Origin: Candidatus Methanophaga sp. AG-394-G06
GTDB taxonomy: Archaea > Halobacteriota > Syntropharchaeia > Alkanophagales > Methanospirareceae
Assembly: GCA_009903405.1 (NCBI GenBank)
Contig: PRCZ01000013.1
Coordinates: 1 to 33,691 of the forward strand
Direction: 5' to 3'
Length of the DNA stretch: 33,691 bases
This document shows positions 4,277-24,398 of this stretch, piece by piece (the first letter of the stretch is position 1; each line of letters begins with the position of its first letter). The notes beneath the pieces were generated by a model. That model was not told where the DNA came from. It ran no database searches and saw only the letters and a program-made list of their open reading frames with translations. The position numbers and the translations under genes are program-made.

Positions 4277-4345
4277 AGAAGGATTCGTTTGCATCTATGC
4301 CTTTGGCATTATGATATTACTCTACGGAAGGAAAAAACCAAAAAA

Positions 4346-4355
4346 TTTATATATA
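4346..4355 (+). promoter_or_regulatory. TATA box for the hdrA pair
   Basis: TTTATATATA, placed about 40 nt before the preferred HdrA start at 4392. A transcription start about 27 nt downstream leaves a short leader carrying the ribosome-binding sequence GAAAGAGGT just before ATG 4392. It lies inside the artificial upstream extension of the reading frame, which argues against the ATG at 4311. Confidence 0.55.
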
Positions 4356-4391
4356 GATTGTAACAGATTATTCAACAGGGGTGAAAGAGGT

Positions 4392-6065
4392 ATGGCAACT
4401 GAAGCTGAAACGGATGAAGAAGAAGTAAAAGAAGCAGAAGAAGAAGTAAAAGAAGCAGAAGAGGTAAAAGAAGCAGAGAAGGCTAAAGGTGAGCTGGGGA
4501 CGAAAAAGATAGAGGCGACCAGACACCTGATGGAATCAATAAAAGATACGGTTGAAAAATCGCTTTTAGAGAAGATAGAAGAGAAAGAGGTGGATGTGGT
4601 TCCGGAAGCGTTAGTGATAGGGGGCGGAATAGCAGGTATGTATGCCGCATTGGACATCGCAGATGCCGGGTTCAAGGTGCATCTAGTGGAAAGATTACCT
4701 TCCATTGGTGGACACATGGCACAGCTCGATAAGACGTTCCCAACACTCGATTGTTCCGCATGTATTTTAACGCCCAGACTGGTGGATGTTGGTGTTAATC
4801 CGAACATAAACCTGATGAGCTGTTCAGAGGTAATAGGCGTGGAAGGCTCTGTGGGCAATTTCAAAGTGAAGGTAAGGAAGAATGCGAAATACGTTGATGA
4901 AACGATATGCACCGGCTGCATGATGTGCGAAGAAGCTTGTAGATTGAAAGGTAGGTTTCCAAACGAATTTGATTTGGGATTAATGAAGAGAGGACCAATA
5001 TATAGACCCTTCCCTTTTGCAATTCCCGCTGCTTATAGCATTGATGGAGGGACTTGTTTGATGATAAAGAAGGGTAAATGTGGAAAGGCCACGCTTGAGA
5101 GCACGATAGAAGCAGTGAAAAAGCGAGAGAGAGGAGAAGAAATAACCAAAGATGAAGCTCCACCCTGTGTTCTGGCATGTGGTCCAAACTGTATACATCA
5201 TGATATGGAAGATGAGATAGTGGAGTTGAATGTTGGCGGGATTATAGTTGCAACTGGTTTTGATGTCATGGAGCCGGAGTGTATGCCGGAATACAAGTAT
5301 GGCGTGTATCCAAACGTAGTACACGGCCTAGAGTTCGAACGTTACTCCTCGGCAAGTGGACCCACAATGGGCAGGATGCAGATAGCTGGTATGCCAGAGC
5401 CAAAAGATGCAGTATTCTTGTCTTGTGTTGGTTCGAGGAACTCGCAGACGGGGTACGAATACTGCTCTCGTGTATGTTGCATGTATTTAGCGAAACAGGC
5501 ACATTTGCTACAAGAGAAAGTTCCGGATTGCAACATAACCGTTTTATATCAAGACGTGCGGGCATTTGGTAAAGGATTTGAGGAGTTTTATGACAGAGTG
5601 AAAGCTGAAGGACTCAGCTATCGCAGGGGACTTGCATCCGAGATATACAAGAAACCGGGCAGTGATAGGGTCATAGTGAGAGCGGAAGACACAATGCTTG
5701 GCGAGCCTTATGAGCTTGAAGCAGACCTCATAGTTCTTGGCATAGGATTGAAACCAAGTGAGGGCAGTGAGAAGTTATTGGAAATGCTTGGTGTCTCGCT
5801 GACGTCCGACAATTTTGCAAAGGAGGCACATCCAAAGCTCAGACCTGTGGATACAGAGGTAGAAGGAGTTTTTGTTACCGGATGCGCTCAGGGTCCAAAA
5901 GATATTCCTGACAGCGTTGCACAAGCAAAGGCAGCGGCTGGTGCTATTCTTGCTCTATTAGCCAGAGGAAAAGCGAAGATAAGACCTTCGGTAGCAGAGA
6001 TAGATGAAGAGATGTGCATAGGGAGTAACTCGTTAATAGAGATGGCGGAGAAGATAGGAGCATAA
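4392..6065 (+). CDS. HdrA-like iron-sulfur flavoprotein lacking terminal Fe-S domains
   Basis: Resembles heterodisulfide reductase subunit A, the FAD subunit of flavin-based electron bifurcation complexes. Residues 1-40 are a Glu/Lys/Ala-rich repeat (units like EEVKEAEE) in place of the usual HdrA N-terminal domain. The FAD motif VIGGGIAGMYAALDIA is near residue 75. The DCSACILTPRL cysteines are present. An inserted ferredoxin motif CTGCMMCEEAC follows, then a second cysteine group (CLMIKKGKC, later PCVLACGPNC). The C-terminus stops where the downstream paralogue begins its two 4Fe-4S motifs: MCIGSNS keeps one Cys and then ends. The start was chosen from the TATA box and RBS. It is 13 nt upstream of the full-length HdrA and probably pairs with it. 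No HdrB or HdrC is nearby. Confidence 0.88.
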   Translation: MATEAETDEEEVKEAEEEVKEAEEVKEAEKAKGELGTKKIEATRHLMESIKDTVEKSLLEKIEEKEVDVVPEALVIGGGIAGMYAALDIADAGFKVHLVERLPSIGGHMAQLDKTFPTLDCSACILTPRLVDVGVNPNINLMSCSEVIGVEGSVGNFKVKVRKNAKYVDETICTGCMMCEEACRLKGRFPNEFDLGLMKRGPIYRPFPFAIPAAYSIDGGTCLMIKKGKCGKATLESTIEAVKKRERGEEITKDEAPPCVLACGPNCIHHDMEDEIVELNVGGIIVATGFDVMEPECMPEYKYGVYPNVVHGLEFERYSSASGPTMGRMQIAGMPEPKDAVFLSCVGSRNSQTGYEYCSRVCCMYLAKQAHLLQEKVPDCNITVLYQDVRAFGKGFEEFYDRVKAEGLSYRRGLASEIYKKPGSDRVIVRAEDTMLGEPYELEADLIVLGIGLKPSEGSEKLLEMLGVSLTSDNFAKEAHPKLRPVDTEVEGVFVTGCAQGPKDIPDSVAQAKAAAGAILALLARGKAKIRPSVAEIDEEMCIGSNSLIEMAEKIGA

Positions 6066-6078
6066 AAGGAGATAAAAA

Positions 6079-8265
6079 ATGGCAGAAGAAGAATATGATT
6101 ATACAAAAATCCCGATGGAGGGATATGTAGAAGGTATCGCGGCTGGAGCACCAGAGGACGCACCCAGGATCGGCGTTTATGTTTGCCATTGTGGGATAAA
6201 CATAAAGATGGTATTGGATGTAACGAAAATAATGAAGTATGCAGCGGCGTTACCAAATGTTGTTCTTGCACGGCACTATATTTTTATGTGCTCGGACCCA
6301 GGACAAGATCTAATAAGAAAAGACATTGCAGCGGGTAGGGTCAACAGGGTGATAGTGGCTTCCTGTTCCCCGAGGATGCACGAGCCCACTTTCAGAAAGA
6401 CCTGTTCTGATTCAGGACTGAACCCTTTTTACTACGAAATGGCGAACATAAGGGAACATTGCAGTTGGCCAAATATGGACTATAGGGAACTAGCGTTGGA
6501 GAAGGCGAAGGAATTGGTAAGTAGCGCGGTTGCGCGAAGTGCCTTATTGGAGTCAATAGAGGAGCGGGAAGTGGAAGTAACACCGGAAACGCTGGTGATT
6601 GGCGGCGGCGTAACCGGGATGTACGCAGCATTGGATATTGCAAATGGAGGCTACAAGGTGCATCTAGTGGAGAAAGAGCCGTCTATTGGTGGACATGTAG
6701 CACAATTAAGCAGGTTTTTCCCTACTCTCGAGCGTGCGACTTCTCTTTTGACGCCGCGAATGATAGAAGTGGGTGCGCATCCGAACATAAATCTAATGGA
6801 TTATTCCGAGGTTGTAGAGATAGGTGGCTATATCGGGAATTTTGACGTAAAGGTAAAGAGGAAGCCGCGATACATAGATTCGGATAAATGCAAGGACTGC
6901 GCCCCCTGTATAGAGGCATGTCCGGTGAAGGATATACCAGATGAATTCAACGAGGGATTGAGTACGAGAAGCGCCATATACCTGCCTTTCCCGTTTGCGG
7001 TTCCGCCTACTTATACAATAGATGCGGAAAATTGCTTGCTGCTAAAAGAGGGTAAGTGTGGCGATGCAACGCTGGAAACTATAAAGGAAGGTAAAGCAGT
7101 ACCACCTTGCATGGCGGCATGTCCGGGCGCAATAGACTTCGAGCAGAAAGAGGAGCTCGAGGAGTTAACCGTTGGAACGGTTATAGTAGCAACGGGATAT
7201 GACCTCGTGGACCCGCGAGTATCAGCAGAATACAAGTATGGTGTGTATCCAAATGTGATTACGAGTTTAGAGTTTGAGCGGCTATTAGCTCCGGGTGGTC
7301 CTACGGGTGGCAAGATAGAGCTAAACGGAAAAGAGCCGAAGGACATTGTCTTTATAAGTTGTGTCGGGTCAAGGAATAAACAGGTAGGGAATGAATACTG
7401 CTCAAGGGTATGCTGCATGTACCTAGCGAAACAGGCGTACTTAGTAAAAGAGCAACTACCGGATACGAACGTAACAGTGACTTTCCAGGACATAAGAGCG
7501 TTTGGCAAAGGCTTTGAGGAGTTTTACGGCGATGTAAAGCAGAGTGGTGTTTTGTATATGAGAGGAATTCCTGGTGAGATATATAAGAAACCGGGCAGTG
7601 ACCGAGTGGTAGTGCGTGCTGAGAATACACTACTTGGCGAGCCGTATGAGCAAGAAGCAGACATGGTAGTGCTTGGTATGGGCCTGAAGCCCAACCAGGG
7701 CGTGGAGAGCATAATAGATATGCTAAAGTTATCTAAATCTGTTGATGGATTCTTGATGGAGGCACATCCAAAACTCAGACCGGTGGATACCGCAACAGAT
7801 GGTATTTTTATTGCGGGATGCTGTGCGAGTCCGAAAGATATAACAGATAGTATAGCACAGGGCAAAGCGACAGCTTCTGGTTCACTACTTTATTTGGTAC
7901 AATTGAAGGCGAAGATAGAACCAGCGATATCGCAGATAAACGAAGAGATTTGCATAGGGTGTGGGACTTGTGCAGAGGTCTGCCCGTACGGTGCACTCGA
8001 GCTTGACGAGGTGATGCAAGTGATGACGGTTAATGAAGCGGTTTGTAAGGGCTGTGGTGGCTGTAACTCCGTATGTCCTGCGGGAGCGGCGACGATGAAG
8101 CATTATCGTGACAGACAGGTATACGCACAGGTAGAAGCGTTGACAGAGCGAGGCCTGCAAATTGTTGAGCTTGGGAATGTTGTAGAGGCAGCAGAAGCAC
8201 CTGCTGGTGAGGCTCCTGAACCAGCAGAAGGCGCGAGTGTAGAAGCGGAACAGGTCACAGAGTGA
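6079..8265 (+). CDS. hdrA: HdrA, full-length heterodisulfide reductase subunit A-like
   Basis: A 728-residue FAD/Fe-S protein. The N-terminal HdrA domain has GVYVCHCGINI (Cys36 and Cys38), the FAD motif VIGGGVTGMYAALDIA is near residue 174, and the inserted ferredoxin motif is CKDCAPCIEACP. Two C-terminal 4Fe-4S motifs start at residues 625 (CIGCGTCAEVCP) and 656 (CKGCGGCNSVCP), and an acidic Ala/Glu tail follows. Unlike the upstream paralogue, the TLDCSAC position reads TLERATS, so those cysteines are missing here. A good RBS (AAAGGAGAT) precedes the ATG. A palindrome and T-runs end the unit at 8260-8300. The likely role is electron transfer or bifurcation with HdrBC-type or hydrogenase/formate partners encoded elsewhere. 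Confidence 0.93.
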   Translation: MAEEEYDYTKIPMEGYVEGIAAGAPEDAPRIGVYVCHCGINIKMVLDVTKIMKYAAALPNVVLARHYIFMCSDPGQDLIRKDIAAGRVNRVIVASCSPRMHEPTFRKTCSDSGLNPFYYEMANIREHCSWPNMDYRELALEKAKELVSSAVARSALLESIEEREVEVTPETLVIGGGVTGMYAALDIANGGYKVHLVEKEPSIGGHVAQLSRFFPTLERATSLLTPRMIEVGAHPNINLMDYSEVVEIGGYIGNFDVKVKRKPRYIDSDKCKDCAPCIEACPVKDIPDEFNEGLSTRSAIYLPFPFAVPPTYTIDAENCLLLKEGKCGDATLETIKEGKAVPPCMAACPGAIDFEQKEELEELTVGTVIVATGYDLVDPRVSAEYKYGVYPNVITSLEFERLLAPGGPTGGKIELNGKEPKDIVFISCVGSRNKQVGNEYCSRVCCMYLAKQAYLVKEQLPDTNVTVTFQDIRAFGKGFEEFYGDVKQSGVLYMRGIPGEIYKKPGSDRVVVRAENTLLGEPYEQEADMVVLGMGLKPNQGVESIIDMLKLSKSVDGFLMEAHPKLRPVDTATDGIFIAGCCASPKDITDSIAQGKATASGSLLYLVQLKAKIEPAISQINEEICIGCGTCAEVCPYGALELDEVMQVMTVNEAVCKGCGGCNSVCPAGAATMKHYRDRQVYAQVEALTERGLQIVELGNVVEAAEAPAGEAPEPAEGASVEAEQVTE

Positions 8266-8359: not shown

Positions 8360-9394
8360 TTAAAGCCTCAATTCCCCGGCTACACTTACACCCATATTTA
8401 TTGTTACTTCTGCTATATCCTCACAATACTTCGCTATCCTGCCTAAACTCTCCAGTATAGAAAGAGCGTGTATTTTGTCGGTGACACACCATTCTTCTGC
8501 AAGTATTCGCTCATTTATCGCTTCAACTGCATCAGTCAGGATATTTGCATCATTTATCGCTTCATTTGCCTTTTCTATATCCAGATCAGATAGTGAAGCT
8601 AACGTCTTAATGAACAGATTTTTAGCGGAAATACCCACCTCTTTTATGCCGTCCAAGCAGTTAAATCCCGCAGGTAATGTTATCACCATAGAATTCTTTG
8701 CTATGTTCTCGACATGGTCTCCAATCCGCTCCATGCTCTTCACTATTATTCGGTGGCCCAGGCTATCGCGCTGTCTGCCCACGCCTATTTTCTTCGCAAG
8801 CTCGGAATCGTTCATCGCAGCCTTAAGCTGCCTCACAATCAGCAAATAAAATCGGTCTATCTCGTTATCTCGCTCTACGACATCAGCCGCAAGGTTCAGA
8901 TCGCGTTTATCAAGAGAAGTGATCGCATCTTCTTGCATTGACAATATTATCTTGGACATACTACGTATCGCATCGCGTAGTGTAAAGTCTTCGTATTTCA
9001 AGAAACTCTTGAGCACTATTTCCCCTGCTGATTCACCAACGACCTCCATACCTATAAGTCTCTTTCTCACTTCCTCCTTTATTCGCTTCCTTTCATCAGC
9101 GCCAAAACCGTCTGGGAACAAAAGCGTTACTATGTCATATCCAACGAGGTAATGGGCGATGATACACCTGAAGTTCCCCTCAAAGCTTTCTTGTTCTGAT
9201 AGAACGAGTTCAGCGCTTTTTATCTGCACTTTCTTATCTCTCACGGGAGTTACAATAAGCGAGTTGTCACTACGCTGAACCAAAGAGAGTTCATCACCTT
9301 GCTTTATACCTACTTCCTTTGCCCATTTTATAGGTAGCGAGACAGTAAAAGTCGAACCACCAGTAAGTTGTATCCTTCTCTTCTCTTCTTTCAT
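8360..9394 (-). CDS. AbrB-PhoU fusion regulator (phosphate uptake regulator family)
   Basis: A 344-residue protein typical of archaea. The N-terminal SpoVT/AbrB-like swapped-hairpin DNA-binding domain (RRIQLTGGSTFTVSLP, then WAKEVGIKQGDELSL) covers roughly residues 5-55. Two helical PhoU-like bundles follow, with the metal-binding-type pattern ERIGDHVENIAK near residue 221 and a partner SLGRIAKYCEDIAE near residue 316. PhoU proteins modulate phosphate transport; the archaeal fusion probably also binds DNA. It is transcribed divergently from the ATPase of the pupylation-like locus across a 179-nt AT-rich gap. No pst genes are in the window, so the phosphate link is by family only. Confidence 0.88.
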   Translation of the reverse strand: MKEEKRRIQLTGGSTFTVSLPIKWAKEVGIKQGDELSLVQRSDNSLIVTPVRDKKVQIKSAELVLSEQESFEGNFRCIIAHYLVGYDIVTLLFPDGFGADERKRIKEEVRKRLIGMEVVGESAGEIVLKSFLKYEDFTLRDAIRSMSKIILSMQEDAITSLDKRDLNLAADVVERDNEIDRFYLLIVRQLKAAMNDSELAKKIGVGRQRDSLGHRIIVKSMERIGDHVENIAKNSMVITLPAGFNCLDGIKEVGISAKNLFIKTLASLSDLDIEKANEAINDANILTDAVEAINERILAEEWCVTDKIHALSILESLGRIAKYCEDIAEVTINMGVSVAGELRL

Positions 9395-9573: not shown

Positions 9574-11217
9574 ATGGAGATAAGTATGGAGACGGAGGAC
9601 TATATACCAAGATACGAGTATGAGCGGTTAGAGAGCGAGTATCGGAGATTAAGGCGTAAATATGAAGAGACAGAAGCGTATAAAGCGGATTTAGAGAAGC
9701 TCGTTTCAAAATCAAGGTCACCACCTTTAGACTGTGGGTTCGTAATTGAGAAACTCGAAGACAGCGCAATTGTGAATTTGAATGGCGCTTTAAAAGCTTT
9801 GCCCTACGGAACGCTTGCTGCGGAAGAGATAGAGGCGCTACAAGAGGGTGAATATGTATTCATCGGTCGCATCCCGGATAGAAATAACCCCAGTGGGTTT
9901 ACAATAGGCATCACAAAGGGGTATGACCGGCGGGTGGATTTAGAGGTTGGAGAGGTAGAAGAGCTGATAAAGGACGAAGATGACGAGGGCTGGGTAGCCG
10001 AAATATCAATAGGAAAGGGCCGCGGCAGGTTATATAAGCGGCTGGGCGAAGAAGAGAAGGGAAAGCTAAGAGAAGGTATGAAAGTAGGTCTTCTCCCTGG
10101 AACGTTTGATATAAGGCGGACTTATAGAGCAAAGGAGTATTCTCGCTATGAAGTCACGAAGAGTCCTGGCACGAGCTTTAATGATATTGGAGGTTTAAAA
10201 GAGGTAAAGCAGGAATTAATAAAGAGCATTATTCTTCCAATGGTAAATCCTGATGATTACACAAAATACGGTGAATCCGCCAGAAGGATACTGATGTATG
10301 GTCCGCCGGGATGTGGAAAGACGATGTGCGCAAAGGCGTTAGCATCGGCATTACCCAACTGTGAATTTGTAAAGGTAGGAGCAGGCGAGCTTTTCAGTAT
10401 GTGGCTCGGCGAGTCCGAGAAGAATGTGCGGCTGGTGTTTAAAGCGGCAAATGATAAATTAGTGGAGGGTGAGAATGACTATGGTGTGATCTTCTTTGAT
10501 GAGATAGACGCATTAGCACAGGAGAGGGGTATGTATTCTGGGTCCTCGGGTGCACCCGAAAGAGTTACGGGACAATTACTGGACATTTTAGATGGGTTTC
10601 ATGCCCTACATCCGCACCTCACGGTGATAGGCGCAACAAACAGGTTGCACCTTATTGATTCTGCATTCAGATCGAGATTTGACAAAATAATTGAAGTTTC
10701 ACAGCCTGATAGAGAAGCGGCACATTCCATCGCTTCCATTTATGCAAATACGCTCCCCCTCGATTACCATCTAGTAAAGGAGAAGGGCGGAGATGAGGAA
10801 ACAAGGTCATATCTGGTGAATGAGATTGTCGGATACATGTACAGTAATACTCTTGTTGAGACCGAGATAGGGCGGATAAAGCGAGCGGACACTGTAACCG
10901 GGCGGTTCATCGCGCAGATATTCGGCTATGCGCAAGATAATGCATTAGAGGAGCGAACAATGCTGATGTTGAAGAAAGGAACAATAAAAGATGAAGAGCT
11001 AAGGGCTATGTGGGATAAGGAAGGGCTTGAGTCGATATTAGATGCAGGAAGTAAGGCAGAAGAGTTACAGAAGAGATATAAACATGTAGAGGAGATAGGA
11101 GTGAGCATGCGACACTTAAAAGAAGGGTTTGATAAGTTCGTGCAGAGAAGGGCCGAAGAGATGATTGCGTCTGGCTATGAAGAGCTGCCAGAGGAAGAAA
11201 CAGGAATGCATTTTTAA
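9574..11217 (+). CDS. Mpa/ARC-like proteasomal AAA+ ATPase
   Basis: A 547-residue AAA+ unfoldase-type protein. A coiled coil (about residues 14-50, YEYERLESEYRRLRRKYEE) is followed by a region of about 120 residues fitting the tandem OB domains of bacterial Mpa/ARC, then the AAA core. Visible motifs are Walker A GPPGCGKT (243-250), a pore-loop equivalent MWLGESE with Trp as the aromatic, Walker B VIFFDEID (305-312), GATNRLHLID and SRFD. The C-terminal part contains GRFIAQIFGYAQDNAL, which lines up with SGAMIQNVVDRAKKNAI of Mycobacterium Mpa, a feature I associate with ARC rather than PAN. The last residues, GMHF, are not a canonical HbYX gate-opening tail. It ends 17 nt before the PafA-like gene. 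In Mpa the coiled coil binds Pup; the same role is inferred here. Confidence 0.85.
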   Translation: MEISMETEDYIPRYEYERLESEYRRLRRKYEETEAYKADLEKLVSKSRSPPLDCGFVIEKLEDSAIVNLNGALKALPYGTLAAEEIEALQEGEYVFIGRIPDRNNPSGFTIGITKGYDRRVDLEVGEVEELIKDEDDEGWVAEISIGKGRGRLYKRLGEEEKGKLREGMKVGLLPGTFDIRRTYRAKEYSRYEVTKSPGTSFNDIGGLKEVKQELIKSIILPMVNPDDYTKYGESARRILMYGPPGCGKTMCAKALASALPNCEFVKVGAGELFSMWLGESEKNVRLVFKAANDKLVEGENDYGVIFFDEIDALAQERGMYSGSSGAPERVTGQLLDILDGFHALHPHLTVIGATNRLHLIDSAFRSRFDKIIEVSQPDREAAHSIASIYANTLPLDYHLVKEKGGDEETRSYLVNEIVGYMYSNTLVETEIGRIKRADTVTGRFIAQIFGYAQDNALEERTMLMLKKGTIKDEELRAMWDKEGLESILDAGSKAEELQKRYKHVEEIGVSMRHLKEGFDKFVQRRAEEMIASGYEELPEEETGMHF

Positions 11218-11234
11218 TTCGAGCCCCCAAAAAA

Positions 11235-12989
11235 ATGGAACGGGTGGATTTGAACAGATGGCAGGGATTAGAGCATGAATTCAGAGTGGGAATAAGCTCG
11301 GAATCGCCTAATTTGTACAGATACGCAAGATTTTATCATGTAGATGAAGTGATCCATGCACTCGAGCATTATGCCTTTTTCGACGGCTCGAAAGCTATCT
11401 GCTCGAAGATGCGGAGGCGGAACGATGGTTTTTTGCGTAATGGCTCACGAATTTACATATGCACCGGCGGTCACTTAGAGATAGCTACGCCAGAATGTAG
11501 AAACGCATTTGAAGTGCTAAAATATGACAAAGCAGCGGAGTTGTACATGCAGATCGGAGTGGAGAAAGCGAACGAGAAATACATGGATAAGCGGAAGCAA
11601 AAAGTGAATTGTAGTTCATATATCCAATGCTGGAAAGCAAACGTGGAGATAGACAAGCGGTATAGCCGTGGCACACACGAATCATATATAGTAGAGCGGA
11701 AGAAATATGTGGGTAAAGAGAACCTGCTCATCCCGTTTTTAGTGCTTCGTAAGATATTCTTTGGCGCAGGCGGTTATGTAGCCGATAAAGAAACGATAAA
11801 ATATGTCGTATCGCCAAAAGCGATGGTCTCAAAGAGGGTACTTACCGAATCCCCTTCGCAATGGCCAATATTATCCCTGAGGGATGAGCCATTGAGCACA
11901 AAGGATAAATATCGTGTGCATGTAACATCAGGCGAAGGAGTTCGTTCTGAGGTCACAAGGCTGCTCAACAATGCTATTACATCATACGTAATAGATGCAA
12001 TAGAATCGGGGAAAATTACGCATGTGGAAGAGATCAGGAACCCACTACAAACCTTTAAAGATATTTCCGAGAACATACGTGGGGATTGGAGAATACAGCT
12101 AATGAATGGTCGGACGCAGTCAGTCACAGATTATATTATGAGTTATTATATTGCAGCGATAGAGGAGTTGTTTGAGGAGCGAGAAGTGTCTTATTGGGAT
12201 AAATACTGTTTGGACACGTTTAAGCGTATTTGTGCCAAGTTTGATCAGGGCTTGCTTGAGGACCCATATGTTCTTCGTCGTATAGAATGGGTGATGAAGT
12301 TATGGGTGATAAAGAATGAGTTGGGCGAGTTCGATTATAAACATATACCAAAGGGTAAATTCGATTACCGGAGCAAGTACACGATGGACGGTATGGATGA
12401 GAAAGAGATAGCGGCTTCTTTTGAGTTCACCAATCTCTGTGATTCTGACCTATACGAGTGTGTAGCGGATAAGATAGGAGTGGAACGAATACTGACGGAT
12501 GATGATATAGGGGAAGCAATGCTATTTCCACCGAAGGATTCAAGAGCTGAGCTAAGGGTGAAACTTGCAGCGGAATACAAGAATGCCGCACTGAGCTGGA
12601 ATAAGATAACGATAAATAACGAGCCAAATGTGACGATAGACGTTGGCCGACCGAGCAGAGATGAATATGCGCGGCTGTTTGAGCGGTATCCTGAACTGGC
12701 GAGGATGCCCAGTGCAGTAGTGGTCTTTTTCCAAGAGCAGGGTAGAGGTGAAGGAGCAAGACAGGTTCTTGTGCGACTACTTGCAGAAGAGGAAGACATA
12801 AGGGGCTGGGAGGAGGAGCTAAGTCGGGAAATAAGGAATAGAATCGTAAGAAACCCATACTTGGATTATTTGTTGTATTCTAACAACAAAACATATCGGT
12901 TTGATGAACTGGATGGCTGGGACGAGGAGTCAATAAGAAAGAAGATAGAAGAGATAAAGCAGGGCGAGAAGGGGGGCGATCAGATATAG
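11235..12989 (+). CDS. PafA-like (Pup ligase/deamidase fold) protein with Cys replacing the catalytic Asp
   Basis: A 584-residue member of the PafA/Dop branch of the glutamine-synthetase-like fold. Alignable blocks are GLEHEF (PafA GIETEFG, metal/ATP Glu), FLRNGSRIYICTGGHLEIA (PafA FLRNGARLYLDVGSHPEYA), GTHESYIVER (GCHENYLIVR), LSLRDEP (INTRDEP), KYRVHVTSGEG (YRRLHVIVGDS), AIESG and IEWVMK (IDWVIK). Spacing equals PafA without gaps through the active-site block. Tyr74 and Glu82 (metal ligands) are kept, but the catalytic Asp (Asp57 in M. tuberculosis PafA, from memory) is Cys76. The C-terminus is about 100 residues longer than PafA and carries a charged helical tail. It sits between the ATPase and the Dop-like gene. 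It could be a ligase with altered chemistry, a Cys-dependent isopeptidase or an inactive regulator. Confidence 0.82.
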   Translation: MERVDLNRWQGLEHEFRVGISSESPNLYRYARFYHVDEVIHALEHYAFFDGSKAICSKMRRRNDGFLRNGSRIYICTGGHLEIATPECRNAFEVLKYDKAAELYMQIGVEKANEKYMDKRKQKVNCSSYIQCWKANVEIDKRYSRGTHESYIVERKKYVGKENLLIPFLVLRKIFFGAGGYVADKETIKYVVSPKAMVSKRVLTESPSQWPILSLRDEPLSTKDKYRVHVTSGEGVRSEVTRLLNNAITSYVIDAIESGKITHVEEIRNPLQTFKDISENIRGDWRIQLMNGRTQSVTDYIMSYYIAAIEELFEEREVSYWDKYCLDTFKRICAKFDQGLLEDPYVLRRIEWVMKLWVIKNELGEFDYKHIPKGKFDYRSKYTMDGMDEKEIAASFEFTNLCDSDLYECVADKIGVERILTDDDIGEAMLFPPKDSRAELRVKLAAEYKNAALSWNKITINNEPNVTIDVGRPSRDEYARLFERYPELARMPSAVVVFFQEQGRGEGARQVLVRLLAEEEDIRGWEEELSREIRNRIVRNPYLDYLLYSNNKTYRFDELDGWDEESIRKKIEEIKQGEKGGDQI

Positions 12990-12990
12990 C

Positions 12991-13060
12991 GGAACTCCCA
13001 GTAAATAGTTTAAATCTGTGTTAATCAGCGTTAATCTGTGTCTTATTATTTGTGAGTTCC
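12991..13060. repeat. Short interspersed element with terminal inverted repeats
   Basis: GGAACTC at 12991-12997 and its complement GAGTTCC at 13054-13060 bound a 70-bp AT-rich unit. Inside, AATCTGTGT occurs twice, separated by TAATCAGCGTT. The unit lies in the gap between the two PafA/Dop-family genes, starting just after the first gene's stop. The structure is MITE-like or REP-like; whether other copies exist cannot be seen here. Confidence 0.45.
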
Positions 13061-13105
13061 CTAGAGGAAAAACTGTTATACGAACAGAATGCATATTAAA
13101 GATTA

Positions 13106-14692
13106 ATGAGTGAGCGGATGAAGGGCGCAGGTACAGAAAATAAGATAAGAGGCATAGAGCAGGAATATCCTGTGAGTGCAAAAGCGGGTTTAAATCCGTC
13201 CTTGCTCGTTAATGCAGCAATACAAGGAATAAAACGCGGGAAATTCTCTCGTGATGTCAAGTGGGACGTGGATATGGAGATCACGCAAGAAGTGCACGAA
13301 TCGCGAATATTGTCGTCATACGGTGAAAACGGCAGTCGTATTTATAACGATCTGGGCCATCTCGAAATAGCGACACCGTCATACAACAATCCTTTTGACG
13401 CTGTGGCATACGATAAGGCATCAGAGATATATGCCTATGTAGGCTCACGGGAGGCGAGTTTGGCGTTAAAGAAGGAGGTGCGCATCCATAAGAATAATGT
13501 CGCCAACTTCTTTAGTTCTGCTGGTAGGTGGAAGGAGAAAGGGAAGAAGAGAAGGATAAAGACCAATACGTACGCTACGCATGGCAATATAATAACCAAA
13601 AGGGAAGCGTGCAAAGATTGGAGTCGAGTAGAAAAGGCGTTAATACCTTGGATTATCACACGAATTTTGTTTGCCGGGTCAGGCGATGTTGTTTCCGGCG
13701 ACACGATTAGTAAGGGTAGCGTGAAGTTTGTAATTTCGCCGCGGGCGATGTTTGTAGTCCACAAATCTTCGCTTTCCACTACACGCGAGCGAGGCATATT
13801 GAACACGAGAGACCAGCCCCATGCTGCGCATCGGTACTGGCGACTGCATGACATCCATTACGAAGCACTTCGGTCGGAATATGCGATTTTCTTACGCGAC
13901 ATAGTACAAGCGCAGGTGATTTGCGCCTTTGAGTCCGGATTCTTAGACAATGCACCGGAGATAGAGGATCCAGTAAGAGCGTTTAAGAAACTGTCATTAG
14001 ATACACAGGAATGCAAGTGGCAGCTAAAATTGAAGAGCGGTGAGGTGACCGATGCAGTATCCATATTACAGTTCTATTTGGGTGCGATAGAGCAGATGCA
14101 GGAATTTAGTGGTGTGGAACCGGGGAAGTGGGATGAACTCGGGCTGAAAGGATTTAAGGAGCTGTTAGACGATTTAGAGGCTCGGCACATGGAGAAGTAT
14201 GTGGATGGCATAGACTGGGTAACGAAATTAGCGCTGCTTGTGAATTATGAACCCAAAAGCGCTTTGGAAGGAATAAGCATATGTAACCAGTATGCCTTAT
14301 TGGATGAAAGCGTGCTGGAATGCATAGAAGGCAAGAAGGGCAGTAGCGCCTGCCTTTTCAATCCCGCAGATTCAATGGCATTCGCAAAGAGCAAATTACC
14401 GCATGTGAATTGGTCTTCGCTTCCTGATAGGGTAAGATATGCAGTTAGTAATGCACCCGAGCAAACGCGCGATTTTTTTAAGACTGAAGTATTGAAACGA
14501 TATAGTTCGCAAGTGAGCAGTGTTAGCTGGTCAACATTGGTGCTTGACGAAGCGAAGATAACACTGGATGAACCGTTTATGCTGAACAAGGAAGAGATAG
14601 AGGTAGGGGGCGGAATAGGGGAGATTATATCAGCGGCGAAAAAGTTATATCCAGAGAAGGTTGAAACATTTCAATCTAAAACAGTTTCGTAA
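13106..14692 (+). CDS. Dop-like (Pup deamidase/depupylase family) protein
   Basis: A 528-residue PafA/Dop-family protein closer to Dop. IRGIEQEYPVS matches Dop IIGTEVEYGIS. KWDVDMEI (Trp53-Asp54) matches the Dop RWDYEVE stretch at the start of the Dop loop. NGSRIYNDLGHLEIATP keeps the catalytic-type Asp (Asp82), Tyr80 and Glu87 with the Dop spacing of five residues from Asp to Glu, not the PafA six. FDAVAYDKASE, HKNN, AGSGDVV, ILNTRDQPHA, RYWRLHDI, FESG and IDWVTKL also align. The stretch between WD and NG is shorter than in mycobacterial Dop. Since the candidate modifier already ends in Glu, deamidation would not be needed, so removal (depupylase-like) or ligation is more likely. It follows the first paralogue after 116 nt and precedes the small protein by 81 nt. 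Confidence 0.83.
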   Translation: MSERMKGAGTENKIRGIEQEYPVSAKAGLNPSLLVNAAIQGIKRGKFSRDVKWDVDMEITQEVHESRILSSYGENGSRIYNDLGHLEIATPSYNNPFDAVAYDKASEIYAYVGSREASLALKKEVRIHKNNVANFFSSAGRWKEKGKKRRIKTNTYATHGNIITKREACKDWSRVEKALIPWIITRILFAGSGDVVSGDTISKGSVKFVISPRAMFVVHKSSLSTTRERGILNTRDQPHAAHRYWRLHDIHYEALRSEYAIFLRDIVQAQVICAFESGFLDNAPEIEDPVRAFKKLSLDTQECKWQLKLKSGEVTDAVSILQFYLGAIEQMQEFSGVEPGKWDELGLKGFKELLDDLEARHMEKYVDGIDWVTKLALLVNYEPKSALEGISICNQYALLDESVLECIEGKKGSSACLFNPADSMAFAKSKLPHVNWSSLPDRVRYAVSNAPEQTRDFFKTEVLKRYSSQVSSVSWSTLVLDEAKITLDEPFMLNKEEIEVGGGIGEIISAAKKLYPEKVETFQSKTVS

Positions 14693-14734
14693 AAAGAAAA
14701 GCTTTACCAAAAGAAACTTTATCAAAGAGAAGGG

Positions 14735-14748
14735 ATATTTATTTACTA
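14735..14748 (+). promoter_or_regulatory. Possible TATA box for the Pup-like gene
   Basis: ATATTTATTTACTA lies about 26-39 nt before ATG 14774, a spacing compatible with leaderless or near-leaderless transcription. An own promoter would allow the small modifier to be made in excess of the enzymes. The match is weak and the surroundings are AT-rich. Confidence 0.35.
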
Positions 14749-14773
14749 TAGCGGGGCAGAAAGCGGGGTTAAA

Positions 14774-15019
14774 ATGGACGTGATTGAAGGCAGTATGGAA
14801 GAAGTGGAAGAGCTAGAAGAGGAAGAGGAAGAGCTATTAGAAGGTGAAGTAGAATACGGCGGAGAGGAGAAGGATAAAGAGATGGCAGGCATAATGGGGC
14901 GTTTGAAGAGACGGGAGAACAAGGAGAAAGCCGCTGATCTTGTAAGCAAATTAAAGGGTAAAAAGAAATCGAATAAGAAGATAATGCCTTATGAAATATA
15001 CGCAACCTCGGGGGAATGA
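14774..15019 (+). CDS. Pup-like small protein, 81 aa, C-terminal Gly-Glu
   Basis: A small charged protein: residues 1-37 are dominated by Glu, residues about 38-69 form a Lys/Arg-rich probable helix (MGRLKRRENKEKAADLVSKL), and the tail ends PYEIYATSGE. Pup ends in Gly-Gly-Gln/Glu, is small, mostly disordered and Glu-rich with a helix that binds the Mpa coiled coil, and is ligated through its C-terminal Glu side chain. This protein shares small size, acidity, a helix-prone segment, an aromatic residue near the end and the terminal Gly-Glu, but overall sequence similarity to Pup is low and one Gly is Ser. The case rests on position: last of four same-strand genes after an Mpa-like ATPase and two PafA/Dop-like enzymes. 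A terminal Glu would make deamidation unnecessary. The stop is 1 nt from the convergent neighbour's stop. Confidence 0.68.
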   Translation: MDVIEGSMEEVEELEEEEEELLEGEVEYGGEEKDKEMAGIMGRLKRRENKEKAADLVSKLKGKKKSNKKIMPYEIYATSGE

Positions 15020-15020
15020 T

Positions 15021-15905
15021 TTATAAATCTCCCGCTGGTTTCACTATACTCAGATAGAATCTGCTCCACCATATAACTATTAAAGGTTGAATAACGATAA
15101 CGGATACAACCACGCTTAAAAACGATCCGATATAAGGTATAAAGCTGAGAATAATGCTAACAACAATGCCTATAACAAGCGCGACAAGCCAGAGCAAAAA
15201 GACATCTAATTTATGTTTCCTGAATATGTTAAAACCTTTCTTAACTCCTTCTATCGCACCACGGTCATCTATAACAACCGAGTACCGCGGTAGAGCGAAC
15301 ATTATGCTTACTATTAGCGTGTAGATGCTCATTATCAATATTCCGATCATAAATATCGCAAATGCCGGCATGATTATCTCAGGTGTCGGTTCTGGAGACG
15401 TTGTTATAACTGGAAGAGCGTACACTATGCCGGGAATTAAGAAAACGAAACCTATAAGTGCGATTAAACCAACGATGATGTCGGCAAAGAGCAAACTAAT
15501 GAATTTCCGCTTACCGTACCCTTTCATGTCGGACAGATTGGTACTACCCGTTTCCGTCGCCTCTTTCGCCATGCCAATCGCACCGGCAGCGAAAAAGGCA
15601 CTTATCAGCAACCCTAAAATCATGGCGATGATGACGGCAACTATAACAATGCCTATGTTTTGAATTAATTGCGACATAAGCGGTAGAATAAGTTCGGGTG
15701 TGATTTTATCTGGTTGGGATAAGTGCGGTATCAAAGAGGGTAGCGAAGGAACCGCTGCCAGTATGGCACCGCCTATGATTATGAGTGCCACTATGGATGT
15801 TATTATCGAACTAAACAGAAAAGGGAGACTAATACACAAATTTGCCTTCCACGTATCGAACCCTTTTTTTATTACACTGCCAAGATCTTCTACCATGTTA
15901 CCCAT
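15021..15905 (-). CDS. Multi-spanning membrane protein (archaeal, unknown function)
   Basis: A 294-residue hydrophobic protein with about six membrane segments, starting MGNMVEDLGSVIKKGFDTW. The cytosolic start, the RGAIEGVKKGFNIFRKHKLD stretch before the last helices and the general layout recall a broad family of archaeal and bacterial membrane proteins related to the GPDPase membrane domain and DUF4013-like proteins; I cannot name the exact family. ATG at 15896 is an alternative start. It converges on the Pup-like gene with a one-base gap between stop codons. No functional link to that locus is evident. Confidence 0.72.
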   Translation of the reverse strand: MGNMVEDLGSVIKKGFDTWKANLCISLPFLFSSIITSIVALIIIGGAILAAVPSLPSLIPHLSQPDKITPELILPLMSQLIQNIGIVIVAVIIAMILGLLISAFFAAGAIGMAKEATETGSTNLSDMKGYGKRKFISLLFADIIVGLIALIGFVFLIPGIVYALPVITTSPEPTPEIIMPAFAIFMIGILIMSIYTLIVSIMFALPRYSVVIDDRGAIEGVKKGFNIFRKHKLDVFLLWLVALVIGIVVSIILSFIPYIGSFLSVVVSVIVIQPLIVIWWSRFYLSIVKPAGDL

Positions 15906-21561: not shown

Positions 21562-23679
21562 TTATACATTTGCAAGTGACTCGAGATGGTTTAGCACCGT
21601 TGCTGTTGATGGGTGATCTTCGCCCAGGGACTTCCGAAATATTTTCAGTGCCCGCTCGAAGTGCTCCTTTGCCCCTTTCAGGTCGCCCAGAGCTCGCAGG
21701 ACGCTGCCGAGGTTGTTGACGTCTCTGGCTACATTTGGATGGTCAGGGCCATATGCTTCTTCATCTATCTTCAGCGCCCGCACGATGTGCTCCTTTGCCC
21801 CTTTCAGGTCGCCCAGAGCTTTCAGGACGAGACCGAGATTGTTGACATCTGTGGCTACGTGGGGATGGTCCGGGCCATATGCTTCTTCATCTATCTTCAG
21901 CGCCCGCACGATGTGCTCCTTTGCCCCTTTCAGGTCGCCCAGAGCTTTCAGGACGAGACCGAGATTGTTGACATCTGTGGCTACGTGGGGATGGTCCGGG
22001 CCATATGCTTCTTCATCTATCTTCAGCGCCCGCACGATGTGCTCCTTTGCCCCTTTCAGGTCGCCCAGAGCTTTCAGGACGAGACCGAGATTGTTGACGA
22101 TTGCGGCTACCTCTGGATGGTCAGGGCCATATGCTTTTTCTGCAATAGGCAAAGCCCGTTCAAACAGAACTTTAGCCTCGGCGAACTCCGCGCGTTCGCG
22201 CAAATACACACCGGTTTGATTTAAAATATGCTGTCTTACTTCAGGAGCCGCCTCCAGTAACCCAGCATGAGCAGCCGCCTCCAGAGCGTGAGGCAAAAGA
22301 CGTGAGCTCTGATGCCACGTCCTTACGTCCTCGCTATCGAAGGGAAAGGCTGAACTCAAGAGACGTACAACTGTCTCTGTCCATCTCTTCCTGTCGTCTT
22401 CGCTCAAACGGTCACGCACCACAGCCTGAACCAGCCTGTGAACTGACAGACCTTCGCCGCTTGTATCGATCAGAGAATATTGCCTGAGAGCTTTTATGGC
22501 ACGATTCATCGCCAGGTTGTCGGTTGCTGTTGCTGTAAGTGGCTCAGGGAGATGTTCTGCTCCCCCACTCAAAAGCTCCAGGGAGATGTCGTCCGGAGCC
22601 AAAAAGGCGCACATATTCAGCAGATCCGCAGCATCTTGTGATACCTGACTGACTTGCTTCATAGCAAGGGACCATGTGGTAGCCACCGAATCGGGATAGT
22701 CCGGCGGGTGGGACTCGTCCACCCAGAGTTCCTTTCGCCGCGATAGGAATAGTTCTCGGTACTCGGTTAGCGCGATGCCAGTTGTTTCGATATATGCACC
22801 TGCCTGCTCCAACGCCAGAGGCAGGTCGCCTAGCTCGTCTGCGAGTGCATCTGCAGCTTTCTTGTCCTCCTGTCCCGTACGCTTGCAGAGGAATTCAATT
22901 GATTCCGCTCGATCAAATACCCGGGCTGGCAGCAGTTTGGCCACACCGCCCCAAAGGGGATTGCGAGATGTGATGATTACGTGACCATCGCCTCCCAGAG
23001 GTAAGTAGTTGCGAATCTCTCCGGGGTCCTGAGCGTTATCAAAGATGAGCAGCCAGCCGAGATTATGCTCTAGCCAGCGCTTCACTGCTCTGGCTATCTC
23101 TGTTTGATCTGTGGAGTCTTTCTCCGGCAAATTCAGATCAACGGCAAGGCTGGCGTAATCAGCAGCCATCGTCGCCAGTTCCTCAGACCGAACCCACCAG
23201 ATGACTCTGTATTCAGTCTTATGGCGGTAGATATACTCAACAGCAAGCTGAGTCTTGCCCACACCGCCCATGCCGGTTATAGCCTGTTTCCATGCGGCCG
23301 GCTCTTCTGAAATGAGAGCTAACCTGAGCGCTTTCAGTATACTTTCTCGACCTGTGAAGTTGGGGTTCCGGTGCTGTGAAATGTTCCAAATTGGCGGCAG
23401 CAATTTCCGGATCTCACCCAGTTTGGCGTCCTTTTGCTGCAATAGATCAGTTACGTTCTGTAGCTCTTCTGGTGTCATCTGCCTGCGCAGTTCGTCGTAC
23501 TCCTTCTGGTTATGGGTAAGGGATTCACGTTGGCGTTCGATCTCCCGGCGGTACCTCGCCAGATGGCGGGGGTCTGTCTCATATCGCTCTTTGTCCTCGT
23601 ACTCTTTGAGCATCTCCAGATCCTGACGGATGTTGTCTTCAAGATCGTTCAGACGTTTGCGATTAAAGTCCTCGTTCAT
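21562..23679 (-). CDS. STAND NTPase (NB-ARC) with C-terminal TPR repeats
   Basis: A 705-residue signal-transduction ATPase. Residues 1-90 are a charged coiled-coil module shared with the upstream gene product. The NB-ARC NTPase has the leading PNFTGRESIL, Walker A GMGGVGKT (136-143), Walker B GWLLIFDNA and HVIITSRN. A winged-helix/helical region follows, and TPR repeats of 42 residues (AYGPDHPHVATDVNNLG...) fill about residue 490 to the end. STAND proteins are latent switches that oligomerise upon ligand sensing by the repeats. Many act in bacterial conflict or phage defence, often through a separate effector recruited by the N-terminal module. Codon use looks GC-richer than core genes. Its start overlaps the upstream gene by 4 nt. 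Confidence 0.9.
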   Translation of the reverse strand: MNEDFNRKRLNDLEDNIRQDLEMLKEYEDKERYETDPRHLARYRREIERQRESLTHNQKEYDELRRQMTPEELQNVTDLLQQKDAKLGEIRKLLPPIWNISQHRNPNFTGRESILKALRLALISEEPAAWKQAITGMGGVGKTQLAVEYIYRHKTEYRVIWWVRSEELATMAADYASLAVDLNLPEKDSTDQTEIARAVKRWLEHNLGWLLIFDNAQDPGEIRNYLPLGGDGHVIITSRNPLWGGVAKLLPARVFDRAESIEFLCKRTGQEDKKAADALADELGDLPLALEQAGAYIETTGIALTEYRELFLSRRKELWVDESHPPDYPDSVATTWSLAMKQVSQVSQDAADLLNMCAFLAPDDISLELLSGGAEHLPEPLTATATDNLAMNRAIKALRQYSLIDTSGEGLSVHRLVQAVVRDRLSEDDRKRWTETVVRLLSSAFPFDSEDVRTWHQSSRLLPHALEAAAHAGLLEAAPEVRQHILNQTGVYLRERAEFAEAKVLFERALPIAEKAYGPDHPEVAAIVNNLGLVLKALGDLKGAKEHIVRALKIDEEAYGPDHPHVATDVNNLGLVLKALGDLKGAKEHIVRALKIDEEAYGPDHPHVATDVNNLGLVLKALGDLKGAKEHIVRALKIDEEAYGPDHPNVARDVNNLGSVLRALGDLKGAKEHFERALKIFRKSLGEDHPSTATVLNHLESLANV
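21668..22171. repeat. 126-bp tandem repeats encoding TPR units
   Basis: Four tandem units of exactly 126 bp (starting near 21668, 21794, 21920 and 22046) encode 42-residue kinesin-light-chain-type TPRs. Units two and three (21794-21919 and 21920-22045) are identical at every base as read by eye; the outer units differ at several positions. This indicates recent duplication or gene conversion in the sensor domain. Confidence 0.9.
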
Positions 23680-24398
23680 TGCTCACCACGCACCCAAGCT
23701 TTTAAGCGCTGCCAGGCGGCTTTTAGATTCAGTCCGCTCTTCAGTCCGACCTCGGTTTCATATGTCAGAATGAGCGGGATAATGGGAATCGAAACTTTGA
23801 GTTTATGATTCACATCGAGTTTCGGATCTTCAACCACATTAGACAGGCTTTTTGCTACGGTCATCAATTGTGAGTCATACAATCCTATTTCTGTCTGTCT
23901 AATCTCCAATAGAGCTTGTTGAATGGTGTTTAAAGTTTCTTGCAGCTCGTTTTCCGGAACACTATGGATTTCTATTTCATTCACAATACTCTGCACAATT
24001 TCTAATTGATTTAGATCGAGCCGCTGAACGATTGCAGAGATGATTACTTGCTCGCTGGCATCGAACCGAGCGAGTAGAGTTTTGCGTAAGTCCTTTAAAT
24101 CATCCTGCATAACTTTCTGATTTTTCAGGACATCGTCCAGTTTAGCGTCCATCTGTCGCAACAGATTTGCTGTGTCCTCCATCTCTGCGGACGGCACGCC
24201 GGTCACCTGCTTCTGCAGTTCGTCATACTCCTGCTGGTAGCTACTCAATGATTCACGCTGTCGTTCAATCTCTCGACGATACCCCGCCAGACGGCGGGGA
24301 TCTGTTTCGTAACGCAGTTCATCCTCGTACGCTTTAAGTAAGTTCAGATCCTGACGGATATTGTCTGCAAGATCTTGTAATCGCCGCTCAGTCAGCAT
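23676..24398 (-). CDS. Coiled-coil partner of the STAND NTPase
   Basis: A 240-residue protein without a recognised catalytic motif. Its first 90 residues (DLADNIRQDLNLLKAYEDEL, RYETDPRRLAGYRREIERQR) closely match the N-terminus of the adjacent NB-ARC protein. The middle is helical (LDDVLKNQKVMQDDLKDLRK), and the C-terminal part includes LKVSIPIIPLILTYETEVGL before a short basic end. It overlaps the STAND gene by 4 nt. The shared module suggests homotypic contact between the two proteins, as proposed for effector-associated domains in STAND systems. Whether this is the effector or an adaptor is unknown. Confidence 0.7.
   Translation of the reverse strand: MLTERRLQDLADNIRQDLNLLKAYEDELRYETDPRRLAGYRREIERQRESLSSYQQEYDELQKQVTGVPSAEMEDTANLLRQMDAKLDDVLKNQKVMQDDLKDLRKTLLARFDASEQVIISAIVQRLDLNQLEIVQSIVNEIEIHSVPENELQETLNTIQQALLEIRQTEIGLYDSQLMTVAKSLSNVVEDPKLDVNHKLKVSIPIIPLILTYETEVGLKSGLNLKAAWQRLKAWVRGEQ

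Follow-up and report, generated by a model that had tools for sequence, protein, structure and literature searches.

Does an archaeal order possess a protein-tagging pathway comparable to bacterial pupylation? The question is raised by four consecutive genes of Candidatus Methanophaga sp. AG-394-G06, on contig PRCZ01000013.1. The stretch analyzed (hereafter the window; 33,691 nucleotides) is the entire contig, in an assembly of 1.53 Mb and 119 contigs that is 75% complete. An initial annotation had read the genes as an Mpa/ARC-like ATPase, a PafA-like and a Dop-like protein, and a small protein with a Gly-Glu end. The coordinates of the open reading frames (ORFs) confirm four consecutive genes at 9574..15019, here called M, A, B, and P, with intergenic gaps of 17 (M/A), 116 (A/B), and 81 (B/P) bases:

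9574..11217, + strand: M, an AAA+ ATPase of 547 amino acids (ORF)
11235..12989, + strand: A, a PafA/Dop-fold enzyme of 584 amino acids, predicted ligase (PF03136, 192 bits)
13106..14692, + strand: B, a PafA/Dop-family enzyme of 528 amino acids, predicted depupylase/deamidase-like partner (PF03136, 217 bits)
14774..15019, + strand: P, a candidate tag protein of 81 amino acids with the end YEIYATSGE (ORF)

The interpretation as a pupylation-like gene set is supported by the present analysis. The four genes probably form an archaeal tag-conjugation pathway that would work like bacterial pupylation and feed the 20S proteasome. In an ATP-dependent step, A would couple P through its C-terminal glutamate to lysines on target proteins; removal or trimming of P would fall to B; and M would recognize the tagged targets and translocate them into the 20S proteasome, which these archaea encode. 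Every one of these reactions is inferred, as are the division of ligation and deconjugation between A and B, the recognition of P by M, and degradation of the targets by the proteasome.

The gene set is beyond chance, because the cluster, the gene order, and the tag recur throughout the archaeal order. In a set of 59 related genomes that includes the own one, PF03136 occurs in 38/38 members of the order and in 0/21 others. A wider draw of 392 genomes of the phylum gives 52/53 in the order and 0/339 outside (320 of the nonmatching genomes being placed outside by the way the list is sorted). With a profile built on P, matches are obtained in 36 of the 38 order genomes (not G002 and G004) and in none of the 21 outside. 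A scan of GTDB contigs based on B yields 49 loci. Their titles read Methanophagales or ANME-1 (uncultured anaerobic methane oxidizers) in 25 cases, Alkanophagales in 2, "Methanosarcinales archaeon" in 13, and other labels in 9; two of the latter, Nitrosotalea and Halobacteria, are taken for mislabels. The carriers of the set are accordingly ANME-1 in a broad sense. The four-gene synteny that the initial annotation had named as a check is found in these relatives: the order M-A-B-P, on one strand, occurs in 28/28 loci with all four genes complete, a count that is conditional on B, through which the loci were gathered. In Alkanophagales (G036, G037), as in G020 and G035, P stands away from the cluster and has the same NKKIMPYEIYATSGE end. 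The archaeal character attributed to the surrounding genes is also borne out (S15, L24/L26, TFE, and a geranylgeranyl-reductase-type protein). Since these neighbors are archaeal and the enzymes occur in 52/53 genomes of the order, the contig is not a bacterial contaminant, and bacterial contamination is ruled out.

Both A and B are well above the cut-off of Pfam PF03136 (Pup_ligase), set at 25 bits, and fall in this family; no third PF03136 match is present in the entire own assembly. In NCBIfam, A scores 155 bits with the PafA model TIGR03686 (curated cut-off 551) and 152 bits with Dop; B scores 187 bits with the Dop model TIGR03688 (cut-off 492) and 149 bits with TIGR03686. Against PDB sequences, B matches Dop (E 2e-34). 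The β3–β4 loop has in A the length and flanking letters of PafA (FLRNG..TPEC), and in B the length of Dop. The ATP-site residues are kept in both enzymes. The earlier labels, PafA-like for A and Dop-like for B, hold as regards membership in PF03136; the curated PafA and Dop scores and the phylogenetic grouping (see below) do not sustain them. Residues 6–578 of A align with PafA/Dop and reach the C-terminal domain, which is described as a feature unique to PafA/Dop (PMC12053664). YbdK, glutamate-cysteine ligase, and glutamine synthetase give a much weaker match, with A aligned only to about residue 450 and its C-terminal part uncovered.

Four things make P a candidate tag: it stands in the cluster, it co-occurs with the enzymes across genomes, it has a Gly-Glu ending, and its C-terminal end is under purifying selection. 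The small protein with a Gly-Glu end is recovered in 47 of 48 copies (a number that includes contigs fetched twice), with one copy ending in Gly-Gln (L051). Among 37 distinct sequences, the endings are SGE (35), AGE (1), and SGQ (1). The corresponding codons are as follows:

15011..15016, + strand: Gly and Glu codons that close P, predicted site of conjugation (conserved ending)

Over the last 18 codons in 36 distinct sequences, third positions vary at 17/18, first positions at 3/18, and second positions at 4/18. Because the codons vary mainly at third positions, P is a selected protein. This codon pattern, together with conservation when P is unlinked from the cluster, rules out a chance ORF. 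The N-terminal half is acidic (charge –17) and the last 48 residues are basic (+7). P has no match in NCBIfam and none above a family cut-off in Pfam, and no ThiS/MoaD Pfam family matches it at E up to 1. On a lysine, the predicted tryptic remnant of P would be IMPYEIYATSGE, with a computed mass of +1354.6115 Da. The sole Gly-Gln-ended copy (L051, 7111–7368) is one record, possibly a single-base matter; in bacteria, a tag with this ending requires a deamidase.

Gly-Glu ends are also known on carrier proteins. P could then be a carrier or scaffold at whose C-terminal Glu amino acids or small amines are added and removed by A and B, as with LysW, a type of amino-group carrier protein, while M remodels the complex. 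The fold superfamily of A does include small-molecule γ-glutamyl ligases, and P matches no Pup family. Nevertheless, A aligns into the C-terminal domain unique to PafA/Dop, the cluster is headed by an ATPase with Mpa as best structural matches, and no biosynthetic gene lies within the M-A-B-P block; such a carrier is, in our judgment, highly improbable.

For the tag-conjugation pathway, M would supply the link to the proteasome. M matches the AAA family PF00004 at 121 bits; in NCBIfam, it scores 158 bits with the Mpa model TIGR03689 (cut-off 505) and 154 and 166 bits with two PAN models, every score lying far under cut-offs near 500. In a Foldseek search with the M model, ranks 1–12 belong without exception to Mpa chains from mycobacteria (E 5e-19 to 6.5e-16, with a template-modeling [TM] score of only ~0.3), followed by 26S proteasome chains (from 6e-14) and PAN (6he8, 1.7e-12). 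The model itself is poor (mean predicted local distance difference test, pLDDT, 61; predicted TM score, pTM, 0.35). Three parts of M bear on the proposed function:

9610..9711, + strand: N-terminal helix of M, residues 13–46, predicted tag-binding coiled coil (DSSP on the model)
9730..10092, + strand: two beta-strand units of M, residues 53–120 and 124–173 (model secondary structure)
11200..11214, + strand: TGMHF, the C-terminal tail of M, with predicted docking to the 20S (TGMH[FYL] conserved)

By analogy with Mpa and Pup, the N-terminal helix may bind P. The two consecutive beta-strand units may represent a tandem of OB folds, the arrangement of Mpa; an N-terminal helix, two beta units, and an AAA domain would make up the Mpa layout. 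The tail TGMH[FYL] is present in 38/38 aligned M proteins. The tails compared with it are NTGQYL in the Mpa of Nonomuraea and GVMFA, GMMFA, or GVMFV in four archaeal PANs; by itself, the M tail is not diagnostic. In a tree of the AAA domain, neither grouping is rejected (M with Mpa, log-likelihood difference [dlnL] 0.07, p 0.48; M with PAN, dlnL 6.3, p 0.098), the tree holding one Mpa and 4/9 of the fetched PANs, with the own PAN among the five that gave no row. From the label Mpa/ARC-like ATPase, the AAA+ assignment stands and is joined by the Mpa-first Foldseek ranks; the cut-off of the Mpa profile is not reached.

Every part of the set has a bacterial counterpart in kind. One may thus ask whether this is ordinary pupylation, with ready-made mpa, pafA, dop, and pup acquired from bacteria and later diverged. 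PafA and Dop are sporadically spread among bacterial phyla (PMC7947786, section 5), and the motif lengths match A to PafA and B to Dop. The phylogeny of the two PafA/Dop-fold proteins points the other way. In a 52-row maximum-likelihood tree, a branch supported at 99/96 separates A, its kin, and B from the bacterial PafA and Dop; the long row P0294 adjoins the A/B side. The approximately unbiased (AU) test rejects a clade of A with PafA (dlnL 68, p 5e-5; 52-row tree only) and a clade of B with Dop (dlnL 62, p 3e-5), the groups tested having been named only after inspection of the first tree. When four long rows are removed and one more Dop is included, bringing the Dops to three, A and B group at 100/100; B with Dop is again rejected (p 5e-5), as is A with Dop (p 9e-4). 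In addition, the column of A E234 has Glu in 24/24 A, A2 (a further paralogue, see below), and B rows versus Asp in 14/14 PafA, PafA-like, and Dop rows; in this column, P0294 has Asp, P0347 has Glu, and 11/12 further archaeal rows have Glu. Acquisition of a ready-made bacterial set is therefore improbable.

That the A/B pair arose by its own duplication, and not from PafA and Dop separately, is well supported by the A+B group and the AU rejections, but not final. The branches are long, the Dops are two or three, and Nitrospirota and Planctomycetota are not represented by name. Rows outside carry no stated organism (P0268, P0279, P0334, P0344, P0346, P0294, P0347), and the loop length with its nearby letters pairs A with PafA and B with Dop, against a separate duplication. 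There are also 17 more distant ligase-fold proteins (P0244–P0251, P0253, P0254, P0256, P0257, P0259–P0263), of 451–472 residues with one partial of 327, of which P0246 is named Candidatus Bathyarchaeia; the 12 that are in the tree are sister of the A clade. A scan of IMG/VR for bacterial PafA/Dop gave 40 pattern stretches, none of them confirmed, and a plasmid collection holds two PafA/Dop records only (Nonomuraea and Tsukamurella).

A has a cysteine at the position of Asp64 of PafA. The two positions concerned are as follows:

11460..11462, + strand: Cys76 codon of A, at the PafA Asp64 position (gapless alignment of RIYICTGGHLE with PafA RLYLDVGSHPE)
13349..13351, + strand: Asp82 codon of B, catalytic Asp kept, with the Dop-length loop YNDLGH (alignment)

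This Asp in PafA and Dop is the proposed catalytic base and, for Dop, possibly a direct nucleophile, according to section 7 of PMC3511204; the crystal complex of PafA with Pup (4BJR) was made with the D64N form (PMC8599861). Cys stands there in 43/43 aligned A proteins. It is also found in 116/116 A-type database proteins that cover the site, among the best 120 of 274 matches (114 counted by pattern and 2 by eye, the remaining 4/120 being fragments without the site). Among the matches listed, the named A-type proteins are archaeal, except P0087, which comes from a metagenome assembly labeled Desulfobacteria bacterium (a mislabeled bin or a transfer). In PafA, the residue is Asp in 120/120 matches (the best 120 of 8000 candidates scored; 114 by pattern and 6 by eye), the named ones being all Actinobacteria. 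In B, the catalytic Asp is present in 8/8 rows covering the site, the ninth row, P0243, being partial. In the distant ligase-fold group, position 64 is Asp in 5/12 and His in 7/12. With Cys at the catalytic Asp position, the chemistry of A would differ from that of PafA; because the rest of the site is kept, A would be an active enzyme with changed chemistry and not a dead one. The thiol of Cys76 could take the part of the base; alternatively, it could attack as a nucleophile, carry P as a thioester, and then hand it on to lysine. The fuller version is an archaeal branch of pupylation in ANME-1 and Alkanophagales, with a duplicated enzyme pair of its own and a ligase that depends on a catalytic Cys: the terminal Glu of the tag would be activated by ATP, bound to Cys76 as a γ-glutamyl thioester, and finally transferred to lysine. 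As a whole, this version is tentative and rather unlikely.

Some ANME-1 have a third, stand-alone PafA/Dop-fold paralogue, A2 (L142, 2039–3523; L143, 7918–9423; L144, 4095–5672), in which the RDEP motif is lost and Cys at position 64 is kept. No M, B, or P adjoins A2 in the stretches read at these three loci. The copies are partial or broken in L145, L147, and L152.

A cysteine nucleophile is common in isopeptide hydrolysis. The roles may then be swapped, with B, where Asp is kept, as the ligase, and A as a cysteine-dependent deconjugase, its thioester with P resolved by water in the manner of a deubiquitinase. The constancy of Cys in the A-type proteins and the near-equal profile scores of A would fit such an arrangement. 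On the other hand, A resembles PafA in loop length and flanking letters and B resembles Dop in loop length, B favors the Dop profile, and the Gln-ended P of L051 would call for a deamidase of Dop type, a role that suits B best. We consider the swap unlikely and keep A as the predicted ligase.

The proteasome to which tagged proteins would be delivered is general in these genomes. PF00227 (20S) is present in 59/59 genomes, with two or more matches in 34/38 members of the order; the single PF00227 protein of the own assembly is beta-sized and carries KKG-TTTIG close to the beginning of its sequence. ThiS/MoaD-type proteins are found in 28/38 order genomes. Since PAN, 20S, and ThiS/MoaD-type proteins are all present, the M-A-B-P set adds to the usual archaeal equipment. 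In the own genome, a small gene that reads by eye as JAMM-like (L153, on C36, 4360–4791) lies three genes from the proteasome beta subunit.

Several observations weigh against a pupylation-like pathway. The scores of M, A, and B are far short of the curated cut-offs of TIGR03689, TIGR03686, and TIGR03688, and the Asp regarded as catalytic is missing from A. The profile scores of A lie so evenly between PafA and Dop that its role as the ligase is a prediction. M cannot be assigned to Mpa, given its slightly higher PAN score, the AAA tree, and the poor model, and a profile of its N-terminal part, run against PDB sequences, finds only weak matches to the PAN coiled coil and OB start (E 0.0034 and worse). 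P matches no Pup model in Pfam or NCBIfam; hhalign with the Pup of Nonomuraea gives a probability of 0.1, with no detectable sequence kinship, and the charge of the last 48 residues is –12 in that Pup versus +7 in P (one Pup compared). As for distribution, G229, a member of the order at 92% completeness, has no PF03136 match. P is not found next to the cluster in eight loci where the other three genes are complete (L022, L023, L038, L054, L056, L057, L062, L063); L023 and L056 stop no more than ~100 bases past B, and the other six extend farther. The window has no 20S gene, and the own assembly, at its stated completeness, shows the beta-sized subunit only. Finally, a canonical PAN over cut-off occurs in 32/38 order genomes, own included, so that M is not the sole proteasomal ATPase; replacement of PAN by M is ruled out on the same count.

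Set beside the actinobacterial Pup-proteasome system, the locus shares two PafA/Dop-family enzymes, a small protein ending in Gly-Glu (rarely Gly-Gln), an AAA+ ATPase with Mpa chains first among its structural matches, and a genome that encodes the 20S. It differs in being archaeal, in the order ATPase-A-B-tag and the window without a 20S gene, in the separate clade of A and B, in the Cys for Asp in A, in the concurrent presence of PAN, and in a tag without detectable homology and with a basic, not acidic, C-terminal part. Pupylation genes outside Actinobacteria, in Nitrospirota and others, offer a second likeness (PMC7947786, section 5). That system, named UBact, is bacterial and is likened here by description. 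A third likeness is with the archaeal SAMPs and UbaA, a protein tagging tied to proteasomes. SAMPs have a beta-grasp fold and depend on an E1-like enzyme for activation; P, in contrast, has no ThiS/MoaD match and coexists with ThiS-family proteins.

Emergence of the full pupylation pathway in Actinobacteria has been proposed, with bacterial phyla only listed in the section concerned (PMC7947786, section 5). The initial annotation knew of no described archaeal system of such composition. That statement agrees with our searches of the open-license PMC literature, which turned up no description of archaeal pupylation, ANME-1, Methanophagales, and Bathyarchaeota included. Automatic database names do exist ("Pup--protein ligase [ANME-1 cluster archaeon GoMg1]" is one); single genes are already annotated, and an account of the whole system was not found.

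Around the four genes, the window contains the following features:

8360–9394 and 15021–15905, – strand: flanking genes, directly adjoining the four-gene block on both sides
4311–8265, + strand: two neighboring flavin adenine dinucleotide (FAD)/iron-sulfur proteins resembling HdrA/polyferredoxin paralogues (by eye)
21562–23679, – strand: NB-ARC and TPR protein with 42-residue repeats nearly identical to each other
23676–24398: gene of 240 amino acids before the NB-ARC/TPR gene, with a similar N-terminus

Little is known of protein turnover in ANME-1. With the tag-conjugation pathway, archaea would gain a second route of proteasome tagging beside the SAMPs, and a separately duplicated version throughout an archaeal order would call for a new look at the origin of the system. 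The Asp/His relatives of A, one of them named Bathyarchaeia, would, if the reading is true, make pupylation a wider archaeal trait. The locus also raises the question of the role of a Cys at the catalytic position of a PafA-fold enzyme, which is directly testable; if true, the Cys76 route would represent a chemistry like that of ubiquitin E2/HECT enzymes, evolved within the glutamine-synthetase fold.

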